A DNA stretch of 36,093 nucleotides from the NCBI GenBank assembly GCA_009692065.1, contig SHZY01000055.1, positions 1 through 36,093 on the forward strand, read 5' to 3'. This stretch comes from Gemmataceae bacterium. GTDB lineage: Bacteria > Planctomycetota > Planctomycetia > Gemmatales > Gemmataceae. The notes below the pieces were generated by a model that saw nothing but the letters and a program-made list of their open reading frames with translations, searched no databases and was not told where the DNA came from. Shown piece after piece: positions 14,107 to 18,948 of this stretch. The first letter of the stretch is position 1; the number at the start of each line of letters is the position of its first letter. The translations under genes and the position numbers were made by a program.

Positions 14107-15330
14107 ATGAAGCATCTTCTTTGCCTCGCCGTTGTAATTCTCCCGGTCGGCGCCATCCACGCCGACGATTGGCCCCAATGGCTCGGCCCGCGCCGCGACG
14201 GCGCCTCGACCGAAAAGGGGCTCCTCGATGCGTTTCCCAAAGGCGGCCCCAAGGTCGTCTGGGATCGCGACGTCGGCGAAGGCTTTAGCGGTCAGGTCAT
14301 CGCCGGCGATCGGCTCATCCTCTTCCACCGCGTCGACGCCGAAGAGATCGTCGAATGCCTGCACGCCGGAACCGGCAAGCTGCAGTGGAAAGTCACCTAT
14401 CCAACCGAATATCAAGACCAGCTCGGCAAAGGCAACGGCCCGCGCTCGACCCCCGTCATCAGCGGCGACAAGGTCGTCACTCTCGGCGCCGAAGGGACGC
14501 TCCACTGCCTGACTCTGGAGGACGGCAAGAAACTCTGGTCACGCTCCCTTACCAAGGATTACAAGACGCCTCTCGGCTATTTCGGCATCGGCACCTCCCC
14601 CATCGTCGAGCAAGGCCTGGTGCTCATCAACGTCGGCGGGCCGAAAGCCGGCATCGTCGCCTTCGATCTCAAGGACGGCAAGGAAGCGTGGAAGGCGACC
14701 GACGATCCGCCCAGCTACTCCTCGCCGGTGGTGACGACGGTGGACGGGGCCCGCCGAGCTGTTTTCTTCACACGCACCGGCGCCGTTGTGCTCGATCCCA
14801 AGACCGGCGCTGTGCTCTACTCCAAGCGCTGGCGGGCGCGCTACGACGCCTCGGTCAACGCAGCCACGCCGCTCATCATCGGCAACCAGGCGTTCCTCTC
14901 CACCAGCTACGAAACGGGGGCTCTCCTGCTTAAACTCAAGAAGAACGGCGCCGACGAGGTGTGGACCGACGAGAGCATCATGTCAAACCATTACAACACG
15001 TGCATCTACTACGATGGCCATCTCTACGGTTTCGACGGCCGGCAAGAGGCGGGCCCGAACCTTCGCTGCGTCGATCTGACGGCTAAGAAGGTGAAGTGGG
15101 AACAGGACCGCTTCGGCTGCGGCACGATGATTCATGCCGACGGCAAGCTGATCGTGTTGACGGAGAAAGGCGACCTGTGCCTGGTGCAAGCGACGCCGGC
15201 GGCGTTCCGTGAGACTGCGCGGGTGCGACTGATGGAGGCGGGGCCGTGCCGGGCGCAGATTGCGTTGGCCAACGGGCGATTGTATGCACGCGATCAGAAG
15301 AAGTTGGTGTGCGTCGATCTCAGAAAGTGA
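14107..15330 (+). CDS. Secreted PQQ-type beta-propeller protein
   Basis: A signal peptide (1-19, ending IHADD) is followed by the planctomycete hallmark DWPQWLGPRRDGAS. The body (about 40-407) consists of propeller blades of the PQQ/BamB type, visible as repeated LHCLTLEDGKKLWSRSL, IVAFDLKDGKEAWKAT, VVLDPKTGAVLYSKRW and LYGFDGRQEAGPNLRCVDL. BamB-like assembly roles and quinoprotein dehydrogenases share this fold; there is no catalytic disulfide or metal motif, so an enzyme is not indicated. It probably works in the periplasm as a binding or scaffold protein. Internal ATG 14107 is chosen over 14077 because of the signal peptide and the AAAGGG eight bases upstream. The preceding SUMF1 gene may be in the same transcript. 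Confidence 0.87.
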   Translation: MKHLLCLAVVILPVGAIHADDWPQWLGPRRDGASTEKGLLDAFPKGGPKVVWDRDVGEGFSGQVIAGDRLILFHRVDAEEIVECLHAGTGKLQWKVTYPTEYQDQLGKGNGPRSTPVISGDKVVTLGAEGTLHCLTLEDGKKLWSRSLTKDYKTPLGYFGIGTSPIVEQGLVLINVGGPKAGIVAFDLKDGKEAWKATDDPPSYSSPVVTTVDGARRAVFFTRTGAVVLDPKTGAVLYSKRWRARYDASVNAATPLIIGNQAFLSTSYETGALLLKLKKNGADEVWTDESIMSNHYNTCIYYDGHLYGFDGRQEAGPNLRCVDLTAKKVKWEQDRFGCGTMIHADGKLIVLTEKGDLCLVQATPAAFRETARVRLMEAGPCRAQIALANGRLYARDQKKLVCVDLRK

Positions 15331-15339
15331 GTCAGGAAA

Positions 15340-15363
15340 GCCCAGGGACGCCCGTCCCTGGGC
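15340..15363 (+). terminator. Perfect hairpin after the PQQ propeller gene
   Basis: An 11-base perfect inverted repeat (15340-15350 GCCCAGGGACG, 15353-15363) lies ten bases after the stop, between convergent genes. There is no T-run, so it may be a weak or bidirectional terminator, or a dispersed repeat: the GCCCAGGGA arm recurs in the palindrome at 27921. Confidence 0.5.
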
Positions 15364-15383
15364 CTGGGCAAATTGCTACTTCG

Positions 15384-16080
15384 CTATCTGGCAGCGCTGC
15401 GCAACTTGTCGATGATCTCCCCGTCGAACTTGCTTGAGGAATCGTAGCGCCGTTGCCCATGTCGATCGTGAACTGGTGCAGGCCGGTGTGGTAAGCCTTG
15501 TGCTTGGCCAGGAAGTTGCTGACGCCGGTGTCCCACACCTTGGTCGTCGGGATGCTGAATTTCCACTCTTCCCCCTCCTTGACCAGTTCGATGCCTTTCG
15601 TGAATACGTCGGGCGGGCCAAGAACGTTGTTGAACATCGACCAGCCAGGTCCTTTGCGTCCGTGGCAAGCTGCGCCTGGGTCAGCATGCCCGGGTTCTTG
15701 AGATTGAGCAACTGCCATTCAAAAGACCCGAAGGTCTTCCCTTTGGCAGTTTCCTTGGGGACCGGGCCGACCTTGAAGTTCAGCGGGAACGGATCGAGCT
15801 TGTGCAGGATGATCTGCAGCTTGTCGCTGACGATGCCGTCCTTGTCGCCAAAAGCGCGAATCTGGTCGATGTCGGCCCCCAACTCAGCAGCGCCGGCGTG
15901 CGTGCGGGTCAGGTATTCCGCGTAGTCCTTGGTGCAGTAGTAAGCCGCATTCTTGTAGTTGCGGGCCTGGATGGCCGTGCGGAACTGATCCATGGCCTCG
16001 GCCGGCATCTTGGCTGCAGTATAGCCCTGCGCGACACGGCCAATTCCTTGTTGAAGGTGTCCTTGCTGAACTACCCTACG
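15384..16080 (-). pseudogene. Frameshifted NTF2-like protein gene
   Basis: The protein reads continuously only by changing frame. Frame 1 gives MPAEAMDQFRTAIQARNYKN to KNPGMLTQAQLATDAKDLAG. Near 15641-15650 it moves to frame 2, WSMFNNVLGPPDVFTKG to HQFTIDMGNG. Near 15445-15452 it moves to frame 3, YDSSSKFDGEIIDKLRSAAR and stop. The segments join into one plausible alpha+beta, NTF2/DUF4878-like protein. The 5' end is also lost: no signal peptide or family-like start, and upstream sequence is palindromic repeat. A third shift near 16030 is possible (SKDTFNKELAVSR in another frame). Natural decay is likeliest; assembly errors would also explain it. Confidence 0.75.
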
Positions 16081-16097
16081 CCATCCAGCCGCCGATT

Positions 16098-16200
16098 GTG
16101 GCACGGTCTCCTGACCGTGCCACCGACCCGACCGAAGGTCTCCTGAAACGCCGTGAGACGTGCGGTCGAACTGGGTGGCACGGTCGGGAGACGGCGCCAC
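16098..16200. repeat. GGTGGCACGGTC palindrome cluster
   Basis: A perfect hairpin with 11-base arms (16098-16108 GTGGCACGGTC and 16113-16123, loop TCCT) is followed about 50 bases later by a second, degenerate unit (16175-16200, GTGGCACGGTC again at its left arm). Between them are further GACCGAAGGTCTCCTG fragments. The cluster lies at the destroyed 5' end of the pseudogene and next to the stop of the TPR-alphaCTD gene. Confidence 0.75.
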
Positions 16201-16249
16201 AACGCGCTTTGGAAGTGAATTGCGAGCGCCAAGCGAAGATCGGGATTCG

Positions 16250-17590
16250 TTAGTCACCGCGCAGGTTCAGGCCCATTTGCCGGAGCTTTTCACGCACTTC
16301 GTTGAGCGAGGTCATGCCGAAATTCTTGGCTTCGAGCAGCTCGTCGGCCGTGCACACGATCAACTCGCCTATGGCGGCAATCCCCAGGCGGTTCATGCAC
16401 TTGCGGGCCCGAACCGACAGGTTCAGGTCGCTCACCGGCTTGTTAAGGACGGCCTGTTCCGCCTCGCTCAACTGGGTTGTGGGCATGAAGCGTCGCTCCA
16501 CGTTGGCGCCCTGCTCGAGCGCTTGGCCGACGCGCAAGCTTTTGGCGCCGAGGATCAGCTTGATCTCGTTCAGCGATGTCTCGCCGAAATTTTTGCTGCT
16601 CAAGAGCTGCGGTTCGCTGACGCGCGTCAGGTCGCCCAGCGTGCGGATATTCATCTTCTTGAGGCAATTGCGGCTGCGCACCGACAATTCAAAGTCGGTG
16701 ATCGGTATCTCCAGCACCTGATTGAACTTGCTGCTGGCGAGTTCGGCCTCGGGATTGTAGTACATCGTCAGCGAGGCTTCCGCATCCTTGAGGAATAACC
16801 GGGCTTGTTCCTGGTGCGGGTCGGCGTGCAGAATGCGGCGATAGCAATCGACAGCCTTGTCGTACTTGTCCGAGTCCTCGTAGAGGATGCCGAGGTTCAT
16901 GAGCAAGCCCATGTGGATAGGCGGGTGAGTCATGCAGCGTTCGTAGAAGTCGATGGCTTCGTCGTCATTGCCGGCCAGGTCGTTGGAGTGACCGAGCTGA
17001 AAGAGGGCGCCGGTGTGGCTCGGATCGAGCTCGACCGCCTTCTCGAAGTGATGAATGGCCTTGTCGCGCACGCCTTCGAGGACGAAGCAGCAACCGACCT
17101 GAAAGTGATACTCGGGATTGTGCGTGGCCTGGCTTTCGAGTTCCCTCAAGACGGTGCGTGCCTGCGCGACGTCCCCTTTGAGGCGATGAATGCCTGCTCG
17201 CTGCAGCTTGACCTGGTTGGTATTGTAGCCAGTCTTTTCGGCCTTCTCGAATGCCTTGAACGCCTCGTCGAGCAGTTGCTTTTCCAGTAGGGCCTTGCCG
17301 AGGTAAAAGTTTGCGAGCGCGCCTTCGGCAAGCTTGAAGTTTTCGATGGCGTCGACGAGATGGCCAATGAAGTACTGGGCAATACCGAGCTTGAGGTGCC
17401 AGCGTTTGCCTAGAGGAGTGCCGGCGTTGGCCTCGACCTTTTTCTTGAGCGCCTCGGCTGATTCCCGCAAGGAGCGGTACTGCGTCTTGCCCTGGGCCAG
17501 ACCGCTGCGCAATTTCTCAACGGTGCCGGCGTCGCAGTCCTCGCGTTCGACCATCAGCGCCTTCAAGTCAATCAAGATCGTGTCCACCAT
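16250..17590 (-). CDS. TPR protein with two RNA polymerase alpha C-terminal domains
   Basis: No signal peptide; cytoplasmic. Residues 60-275 are six or so TPR units (for example NPEYHFQVGCCFVLEGVRDKAI, ELDPSHTGALFQLGHSNDLA). The C-terminus holds two RNA polymerase alpha CTDs: repeat 1 at about 295-358 (ITDFELSVRSRNCLKKMNIR, then NFGETSLNEIK) and repeat 2 at about 384-446 (VSDLNLSVRARKCMNRLGI, then NFGMTSLNEVR). In E. coli alpha these helices contact DNA and activators. Arg265 is kept in both repeats; Asn268 is kept in repeat 1 and is Lys in repeat 2; the Gly296/Ser299 positions are kept. ATG 17590 (446 residues) has GGAAGG upstream and a 39-base leader from the predicted promoter; ATG 17620 would leave almost no leader. 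It may act on transcription through UP-like DNA or activators, with the TPRs as partner dock. Function is inference. Confidence 0.87.
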   Translation of the reverse strand: MVDTILIDLKALMVEREDCDAGTVEKLRSGLAQGKTQYRSLRESAEALKKKVEANAGTPLGKRWHLKLGIAQYFIGHLVDAIENFKLAEGALANFYLGKALLEKQLLDEAFKAFEKAEKTGYNTNQVKLQRAGIHRLKGDVAQARTVLRELESQATHNPEYHFQVGCCFVLEGVRDKAIHHFEKAVELDPSHTGALFQLGHSNDLAGNDDEAIDFYERCMTHPPIHMGLLMNLGILYEDSDKYDKAVDCYRRILHADPHQEQARLFLKDAEASLTMYYNPEAELASSKFNQVLEIPITDFELSVRSRNCLKKMNIRTLGDLTRVSEPQLLSSKNFGETSLNEIKLILGAKSLRVGQALEQGANVERRFMPTTQLSEAEQAVLNKPVSDLNLSVRARKCMNRLGIAAIGELIVCTADELLEAKNFGMTSLNEVREKLRQMGLNLRGD

Positions 17591-17636
17591 CTTGGTCGTA
17601 CCTTCCGCGTTTGGAGTCATGTGGGGTCAAAACGAT

Positions 17637-17665
17637 AATATAATCAGCAACGGGGTGAAACGCAA
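17637..17665 (-). promoter_or_regulatory. Sigma70-type promoter of the TPR-alphaCTD gene
   Basis: On the minus strand, TTGCGT (17660-17665) and TATATT (17637-17642) are 17 bases apart. The predicted start of transcription, near 17629, leaves a leader of about 39 bases to ATG 17590. On the plus strand the same AT-rich block contains a perfect TATAAT (17639-17644), which could serve the divergent methyltransferase gene, though without a good -35. Confidence 0.5.
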
Positions 17666-17690
17666 GGGCCGCGCCATGTAGGGGACTATT

Positions 17691-17728
17691 CGTTTAGCGC
17701 CCGCGGGGCGCCGCGCGGGCGCTAAACG
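17691..17728. repeat. TTTAGCG-family palindrome, copy 4, between divergent genes
   Basis: Perfect 15-base arms (17691-17705 CGTTTAGCGCCCGCG and 17714-17728) with an 8-base loop. It is in the shared upstream region of two divergent genes, 17 bases before the ATG of the methyltransferase gene. It therefore cannot be a terminator for either neighbour; it would form a hairpin in the leader of the methyltransferase mRNA. Confidence 0.87.
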
Positions 17729-17744
17729 AGGATCGCGAAACACC

Positions 17745-18857
17745 ATGCCTGCCGACCGACGAACCGAACTCCCCTCCTGCTACGCCATGGTCCACGAAGG
17801 GCTCGAAGACCTCGCGGGGGCGGAGATCGCGCAGACGCTCGGCGGCAAGATCAAACGCGCGGGCAACGGCATCGTCGTCTTTCGGCTCGACGATATTGAC
17901 CGCTCCATCCTGCAATTGCGCACTACCGAGGACGTGTTCCTCTACGCCTGGGGTACCGACGAGCTCAGCTACCGCGCCAAGGATCTCGAAAGCATCGAAC
18001 GCTGGACCGACCGCGTCCGCTGGGACTCGCTCCTGAAAATCCACCACGCCGTCACGCCGAAGCCGAAGGGAAAGACGACGTATCACTTCGTCACGCAAAT
18101 GTCCGGCGTACACGGCTATAGGCGCGTCGATGCGAAGAAAGCGATGATGCGCGGCTTGATCGGCAAATTACCCGGCAGTTGGCGCTATGCCGAAGAGAAT
18201 GCGTCGGTCGAAATCTGGCTGACGATCAACGGCGCGATGGCGGTGTGCGGCATGAGGCTTTCGGACAAGACGATGCGGCATCGCAGCTACAAGCACGAGC
18301 ATCTGCCGGCGTCGATCCGGCCAACGATCGCCGCCGTCATGGTGCGCCTCGCCGAGTTGAAGCCTGACCAGACTGTGCTCGACCCGATGTGCGGCGCCGG
18401 CACGCTCTTGGCCGAGGCGCACCTGAGCACCCGTGGCAAGAAGACAACCGCGGGGACCGATTGGCCTATGCGCTTCCTCGGCGGCGATCTCGATCCGAGC
18501 CACCTGCGGGCGGCCCAGGCGAATCTGCGGCGATTCGGCATTACCGACCTGCGCACCTGGGATGCACGCGAGTTGCCGCTGGAAGACGCTTCGATGGACC
18601 GCATCGTGTGCAATCCCCCCTTCGGGAAGCAATTGGAGACGCCGGAGGCCATCGGACCGCTCTACAAGCAAAGCGTGCGCGAAATGGATCGGGTCTTGCA
18701 TCCGGGCGGAAAAGCGGTTCTGATTGTAGCAGACGCCGCCGCCTTGCGCTCGGCGATCGAGCGAGTTGGCTGGAAGGAACAACGGCACGTGCAACTGCGC
18801 ATGCTGGGCCAGCGGGCGTTCATCGGGGTGTATCGCAAGCCGAGCGCGGGCGCGTGA
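17745..18857 (+). CDS. THUMP-domain RNA guanine-N2 methyltransferase
   Basis: The N-terminal part (about 10-165) fits the ferredoxin-like plus THUMP RNA-binding module (CYAMVHEGLEDLAGAEI; then VTPKPKGKTTYHFVTQMSGV). Residues 185-365 form a Rossmann methyltransferase: SAM loop DPMCGAGTLLAEA (213-225), GGDLDPSHLRAAQANLRR and catalytic NPPFG (290-294). This is the layout of TrmN/Trm14 (m2G6 of tRNA) and of the RlmL N-terminal methyltransferase. With 370 residues and no RlmK half, a TrmN-like tRNA enzyme is most likely. The leader holds a TTTAGCG palindrome close to the start, which might affect translation. The gene seems monocistronic. Confidence 0.88.
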   Translation: MPADRRTELPSCYAMVHEGLEDLAGAEIAQTLGGKIKRAGNGIVVFRLDDIDRSILQLRTTEDVFLYAWGTDELSYRAKDLESIERWTDRVRWDSLLKIHHAVTPKPKGKTTYHFVTQMSGVHGYRRVDAKKAMMRGLIGKLPGSWRYAEENASVEIWLTINGAMAVCGMRLSDKTMRHRSYKHEHLPASIRPTIAAVMVRLAELKPDQTVLDPMCGAGTLLAEAHLSTRGKKTTAGTDWPMRFLGGDLDPSHLRAAQANLRRFGITDLRTWDARELPLEDASMDRIVCNPPFGKQLETPEAIGPLYKQSVREMDRVLHPGGKAVLIVADAAALRSAIERVGWKEQRHVQLRMLGQRAFIGVYRKPSAGA

Positions 18858-18872
18858 GCCGTTGCAAGTTCG

Positions 18873-18948
18873 CCGCTTGCCGCCTAGCGCTCGCCGGGTG
18901 TATTCGATTGCCGCGGACTCCTCACTACGAGCGCTAAGCCACAAGCGG
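18873..18948. repeat. TTTAGCG-family palindrome, copy 5 (degenerate)
   Basis: The arms 18873-18893 (CCGCTTGCCGCCTAGCGCTCG) and 18928-18948 pair with a few mismatches near the middle. It lies between tandem plus-strand genes, 16 bases after the methyltransferase stop and 18 before the next start. The family cores CCGCTTG and TAGCGCTCG are kept. Confidence 0.75.

Follow-up and report, generated by a model that had tools for sequence, protein, structure and literature searches.

A planctomycete TPR protein with two tandem RNA polymerase alpha C-terminal domains outside RpoA

Here, we describe a planctomycete protein in which a TPR solenoid is followed by two tandem copies of the C-terminal domain of the RNA polymerase alpha subunit (alphaCTD). 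The alphaCTD is commonly thought of as a part of RNA polymerase. The domains themselves are known and were named by a Pfam run; the protein shows the use of the alphaCTD outside RNA polymerase, here across the sampled phylum. The gene lies on contig SHZY01000055.1 of Gemmataceae bacterium (assembly GCA_009692065.1), and the whole analysed stretch of 36,093 nucleotides is referred to as the window. With roughly even confidence, we propose that the protein is a promoter-DNA-binding adaptor that would dock a conserved partner.

The open reading frame (ORF) spans 16250–17620 on the minus strand and encodes 456 residues if translation starts at 17620, and residues are numbered throughout by this 456-residue reading. 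The ATG at 17590 is probably the start, with the first ten codons untranslated, because nothing precedes GGQA-MVDT in frame in one homologue (L035) and two others (L036 and L037) begin to match at that methionine. An earlier reading of the sequence alone, hereafter the sequence-only reading, had extended the feature to 17665, which falls outside the ORF. The resulting features are listed in Table 1. In the homologues, the linker between the two alphaCTD copies measured 14–28 residues, with a median of 19 (over residues 366–385).

Table 1. Coordinates of the gene and of its domains in the window
Feature	Position	Strand	Residues	Basis and remarks
TPR-alphaCTD-alphaCTD gene	16250..17590	(-)	446 aa from ATG at 17590	ORF and homologue comparison
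TPR solenoid	16823..17416	(-)	~69-266	Pfam TPR, model helices, conservation; NLG-x-LYED in last TPR
alphaCTD copy 1	16523..16723	(-)	300-366	PF03118, tail model
Inter-copy flexible linker	16463..16522	(-)	367-386	pLDDT, entropy; least conserved part
alphaCTD copy 2	16262..16462	(-)	387-453	PF03118, tail model

The domain composition read from the sequence alone, two tandem alphaCTD copies at the end of a TPR protein, was borne out by the Pfam search. RNA_pol_A_CTD (PF03118) matched the protein in two stretches with 139.6 bits (cut-off 23.8, E 2.7e-41), both copies exceeding the cut-off individually (78.3 and 72.3 bits), and several TPR models passed their cut-offs, TPR_2 with 76.2 bits (cut-off 27). 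The bacterium's own genome (5.97 Mb in 255 contigs, of which the window is contig C177) contains three PF03118 matches in total, one in RpoA (contig C138, 82.5 bits) and two in the window protein. Copy 1 aligned without gaps to the E. coli alphaCTD (1COO) over 82 residues (E 5.3e-14) and keeps the positions of Arg265, Asn268, Cys269, Asn294, Gly296, Ser299, and Glu302, among them the four (Arg265, Asn268, Gly296, and Ser299) that the sequence-only reading had named for the first repeat. The best chain for copy 2 in the sequence comparison was 6fbv (E 1.8e-12); this copy keeps Arg265 and carries Lys at 268. No alpha N-terminal dimerisation domain was found among the 25 Pfam matches listed out of 26, and by that criterion the protein is not RpoA. 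NCBIfam RpoA models also matched the tail, well under their cut-offs (TIGR02027, 126.5 bits vs. 227.8), with the best stretch C-terminal.

The fold of the protein was further assessed using structure prediction. The whole-protein model (51 sequences) had a mean pLDDT of 87.5, with values below 50 only at residues 1–13 and 372–383, and the 50 Foldseek matches listed out of 1719 were TPR or TPR-like solenoid proteins, or complexes that contain one. For a separate tail model (37 sequences; pLDDT 80.1, pTM 0.43), all 50 matches listed out of 383 were RNA polymerase or isolated alphaCTD entries. The tail model fitted alphaCTD–DNA structures to 0.6–0.8 Å, including the CAP–DNA complexes 3n4m_B (0.7 Å, 63 columns) and 1lb2 (0.6 and 0.8 Å) and the complex with an UP element and sigma region 4, 3n97_B (0.7 Å, 64 columns). 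Each of these fits places one copy per alignment and thus refers to the tail and not to each copy separately, and alignments extending past one domain fitted worse (1coo, 5.5 Å over 85 columns). Both copies are therefore genuine alphaCTDs by sequence, and the tail is an alphaCTD by fold; a generic helix-hairpin-helix, the reading that a structure check was meant to distinguish, is ruled out by the profile scores together with Foldseek.

A match at E ≤ 1.2e-40 was found in 188 of 199 planctomycete genomes (own genome included, counted by match and not by checked full length in each), a conservation far wider than could be known from the sequence alone. These figures describe the sampled Planctomycetota and have no bearing on planctomycete specificity. 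Among the 11 genomes with weaker matches (G006, G008, G031, G053, G067, G075, G120, G123, G143, G158, and G176), only G031 (90%) and G143 (92%) reach a listed completeness of 90%, and the alphaCTD matches of G143 lie at an extreme contig end (C98:3-98 and 258-437), as if the gene had been cut. The search did not recover the gene in G031 or in G210 (94% complete, weak matches only), both of which are well covered. PF03118 itself is present in 197 of the 199 genomes. Counted by eye, exactly three matches occur in 158 of the 199 and another number (0 to 6) in 41, and we read three per genome as the one of RpoA plus the tandem pair, an assignment made from the counts. Two genomes (G192 and G179) hold ORFs that themselves carry three alphaCTD matches.

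Homologues within the same order are 54–88% identical among the 31 genomes nearest the window (own counted), with the exception of G210 and G203 (74% complete), which gave weak matches, and G209 (75%), which gave a fragment. In a contig scan, 79 of the best 80 loci were planctomycete, Lacipirellula (L074) included, and one was labelled only "bacterium" (L108). The Rhodopirellula baltica protein (L103) likewise contains TPRs and two alphaCTD stretches by Pfam. In family f45, copy 2 has diverged, and only copy 1 was found in two loci, L146 and L163, with open frames of 387 and 392 residues.

Residue conservation was evaluated in 123 homologues, which comprise the 30 best of one scan, the 80 best of another, and 20 hand-picked sequences, minus repeats and short pieces; close relatives dominate this set, and the conservation figures given below are inflated accordingly. 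The residues by which an alphaCTD contacts the minor groove are Arg265, Asn268, Asn294, Gly296, Ser299, and Glu302. In copy 1, each of the six positions is kept in 121–123 of the 123 homologues (Arg265, Asn294, Gly296, and Glu302 in 123; Asn268 in 121; Ser299 in 122), as is Cys269 (122). Copy 2, gapped in two rows, keeps the face partly, with five of the six positions retained in 115–121 homologues (Arg265 and Glu302 in 121; Asn294, Gly296, and Ser299 in 115) and Lys or Arg at position 268 in 113. The planctomycete RpoA rows, 31 in number (the best 30 RpoA loci and the own one again, 30 different), have Asn at this position in 30 cases. Moreover, position 267 is Arg or Lys in all 123 sequences of copy 1 and in 118 of copy 2, vs. 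Ser, Thr, or Ala in 26 of the 31 RpoA rows, a substitution that is predicted to add positive charge beside Arg265 in both copies while the minor-groove face is kept.

Position 297, Lys in E. coli and Lys or Arg in 27 of the 31 RpoA rows, is Glu or Asp in copy 1 in 119 of the 123 homologues, which would be expected to weaken DNA contact. Glu occurs there in the remaining four RpoA rows, and the own-genome RpoA, which has its own alphaCTD, also carries it. Mean column entropy was lowest in the two alphaCTDs (1.01 in copy 1 and 1.32 in copy 2), compared with 1.83–2.95 in the other parts (TPR residues 169–280, 1.83; residues 281–299, 2.19; residues 69–168, 2.45; residues 12–68, 2.59; inter-copy linker, 2.95).

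The TPR part contains a second set of nearly fixed residues. Gly217, Asn242, and Leu243 were present in all 123 homologues and Glu248 and Asp249 in 122, and the last TPR carries a near-invariant NLG-x-LYED motif. Residues 242, 248, and 249 correspond to repeat positions 6, 12, and 13, which face the groove in other TPRs. Because these near-invariant residues sit at groove-facing positions, they point to a conserved TPR partner, as judged from the repeat register.

Besides DNA, an alphaCTD can touch sigma, in that its acidic residue 261 contacts sigma region 4. The acidic patch of copy 1 is well kept (Asp259 in 114 and Glu261 in 120 of the 123 homologues), and position 261 stays acidic in this copy alone, the residue in copy 2 being mostly Asn (82) with the acidic character mostly lost. 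The own main sigma factor (L165) exceeded the RpoD cut-off of 354 bits with a score of 371 bits and contains EAKAVRKLQHPVRS near its end, whose basic residues we take to be the sigma side of the 261 contact.

Taken together, we infer a protein in which two alphaCTDs on a flexible linker of about 19 residues would grip A/T-rich, UP-like promoter DNA through the minor groove, as the alphaCTDs of RNA polymerase do. A further contact, with sigma region 4, may be made by copy 1 through its acidic 259/261 patch. The conserved partner would sit in the TPR groove and thereby be brought to promoters or to the polymerase, and the net effect may be recruitment or activation. Against this adaptor reading stand the acidic residue at position 297 of copy 1, the two well-covered genomes in which the gene was not found, and the usual neighbours of the gene (tgt, yajC, and secDF), which are not transcription genes. 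The contact residues may also have been retained to maintain the fold or a protein contact. In addition, a two-site grip would not be needed everywhere, because copy 2 has diverged or is missing in some lineages.

A bolder version, which we hold to be rather doubtful, takes the protein to be a general planctomycete transcription factor, a second alphaCTD set that would plug a fixed partner into most promoters and might be essential. Copy 2, with basic residues at 267 and 268, would then read UP-like DNA and copy 1, with its acidic 259/261 patch, sigma region 4, whereas the NLG-x-LYED groove would hold the fixed partner, and the protein would be a bacterial analogue of a mediator-type adaptor.

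The gene neighbourhood could point to a different role. Among 101 loci, the window included, tgt lies downstream of the gene and on the same strand in 52, whereas yajC was seen in 38 and secDF in 35. TGT, YajC, and SecD_SecF_C were identified by Pfam, and many contigs are too short for the downstream genes to be judged. In four f45 loci (L145, L146, L153, and L163), the tgt-yajC-secDF cluster lies 3.6–5.5 kb downstream; it lies at 1.4–3.0 kb in L159, and tgt alone follows at 160 bases in L158. From this proximity, it could be argued that the alphaCTDs owe their retention to contacts with protein or RNA during elongation, translation coupling, tRNA modification, or export, and that the protein acts together with the tgt-yajC-secDF neighbourhood and not at promoters. 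We consider this unlikely. No tgt was seen in the window or in 21 further loci for which about 8 kb downstream are available, yet the alphaCTD contact residues are nearly invariant, and the cluster was not seen in the fetched stretch of 14 of 20 loci from other families (L147-L152, L154-L157, L160-L162, and L164). Moreover, tgt-yajC-secDF is a common bacterial cluster, and the proximity may be inherited gene order.

The protein retains the face of Arg265, Asn294, Gly296, Ser299, and Glu302 and has no recognised alpha N-terminal domain, as would also be expected of a decoy that takes UP elements or alphaCTD-binding activators away from RNA polymerase and so lowers strong promoters. Such a decoy would not need a TPR domain with a near-invariant groove, and copy 2, diverged at 261 and 268, is no copy of RpoA, which makes this explanation quite improbable. 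Two DNA-binding-type domains on a flexible linker could finally belong to an architectural protein that bridges two DNA sites, but the copies are at most weakly basic (mean net charge about +0.1 for copy 1 and +0.8 for copy 2) and some lineages have a divergent copy 2 or none at all, so that we give bridging very little credence.

The relationship of the two copies to RpoA was analysed in a tree of 148 domains over 75 columns. RpoA, represented by 31 rows that include one from Azospirillum, formed one side with an SH-aLRT of 99; both copies grouped together opposite RpoA, and copy 2 formed one side with a support of 12. The tree fits a single alphaCTD capture followed by tandem duplication, a tentative order of events that 75 columns cannot settle. 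A phage origin was rejected, since none of the 11 matching phage records covers 80% of the query and PHROG gave no match. A plasmid origin was rejected as well: among the 40 listed of 61 matching plasmid records, the annotated ones are named RNA polymerase alpha, and the matches comprise two query pieces within about 190–330 bases, i.e. on one alphaCTD. For a defence role, PADLOC gave only a weak PglW match.

In the window, the gene is neighboured by a divergent gene for an RlmL-like methyltransferase (Pfam UPF0020), as in 11 other loci. Between the two lies a REP-like palindrome with 20-nt arms (17690-17729), which has many similar places in the own genome (at least 80 match rows, both strands). 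Just downstream of the gene, a dispersed palindromic element (16096-16204) resembles tens of own-genome places, again with at least 80 match rows on both strands. Two overlapping ORFs in different frames follow on the minus strand (15332-16257). Matches to parts of residues 70–188 of the longer ORF occur in seven relatives, in four of them beside the same gene, so that a single gene with a broken or misread frame may be present here. The first part of this stretch is the dispersed palindrome read as protein. A putative UP-element rrn promoter, which the sequence-only reading had placed in the same window, did not hold up, as no Rfam family reached its gathering score (no rRNA), no tRNA or tmRNA was detected in the window, and promoter-like sites at 15200-18900 were at chance level (1 found vs. 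0.7 expected).

The near-universal presence of a tandem alphaCTD outside the polymerase suggests an extra player in promoter recognition in the sampled phylum, one that is absent from models of promoter recognition derived from E. coli or Bacillus, and the protein may provide an additional route for bringing a partner to promoters. No description of it was found in the open-licence literature searched, and the gene is not named in the examined parts of PMC10632474 and PMC12283558, the former of which reports a saturated transposon data set for Planctopirus limnophila.

Compared with RpoA, the window protein shares the alphaCTD fold, the DNA-contact residues, and, in copy 1, the acidic 259/261 patch, but it carries the domain in tandem, fused to TPRs, with a basic residue at 267 and with no alpha N-terminal domain among the Pfam matches listed. 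Its TPR part matches OGT-type and consensus TPR solenoids in sequence and fold, and differs from OGT-type proteins in that no glycosyltransferase domain is among the listed matches. The BREX protein PglW is likewise a large protein with an alphaCTD-like domain, and copy 2 gives a weak match to the PglW model (PADLOC E 5.4e-8). An identity with PglW was nevertheless rejected, because the window protein scores 28.6 bits against an NCBIfam cut-off of 990 and shows neither a kinase nor a NERD domain among the Pfam matches listed. Kinase and NERD domains, together with one alphaCTD, were seen in L191, a planctomycete ORF of PglW size.

Other alphaCTD proteins were also observed. Two small minus-strand ORFs of 155 and 137 codons (L192:1036-1500 and L193:1047-1457) carry a single alphaCTD and no further Pfam domain except an overlapping helix-hairpin-helix match. 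Two plus-strand planctomycete ORFs (L189:2593-5058 and L190:2038-4140) encode three or two alphaCTD stretches followed by sigma-70 region 4 and HARE-HTH-like domains by Pfam. No protein of this type is encoded in the own genome, because its PF03118 matches are three in all. These proteins of the same phylum resemble the window protein in having tandem alphaCTDs that are not part of RpoA, but in the two genomes examined the alphaCTDs are fused to Sigma70_r4 and HARE-HTH-like domains and not to TPRs, such that two promoter-contact modules of the holoenzyme are joined in one non-polymerase protein.
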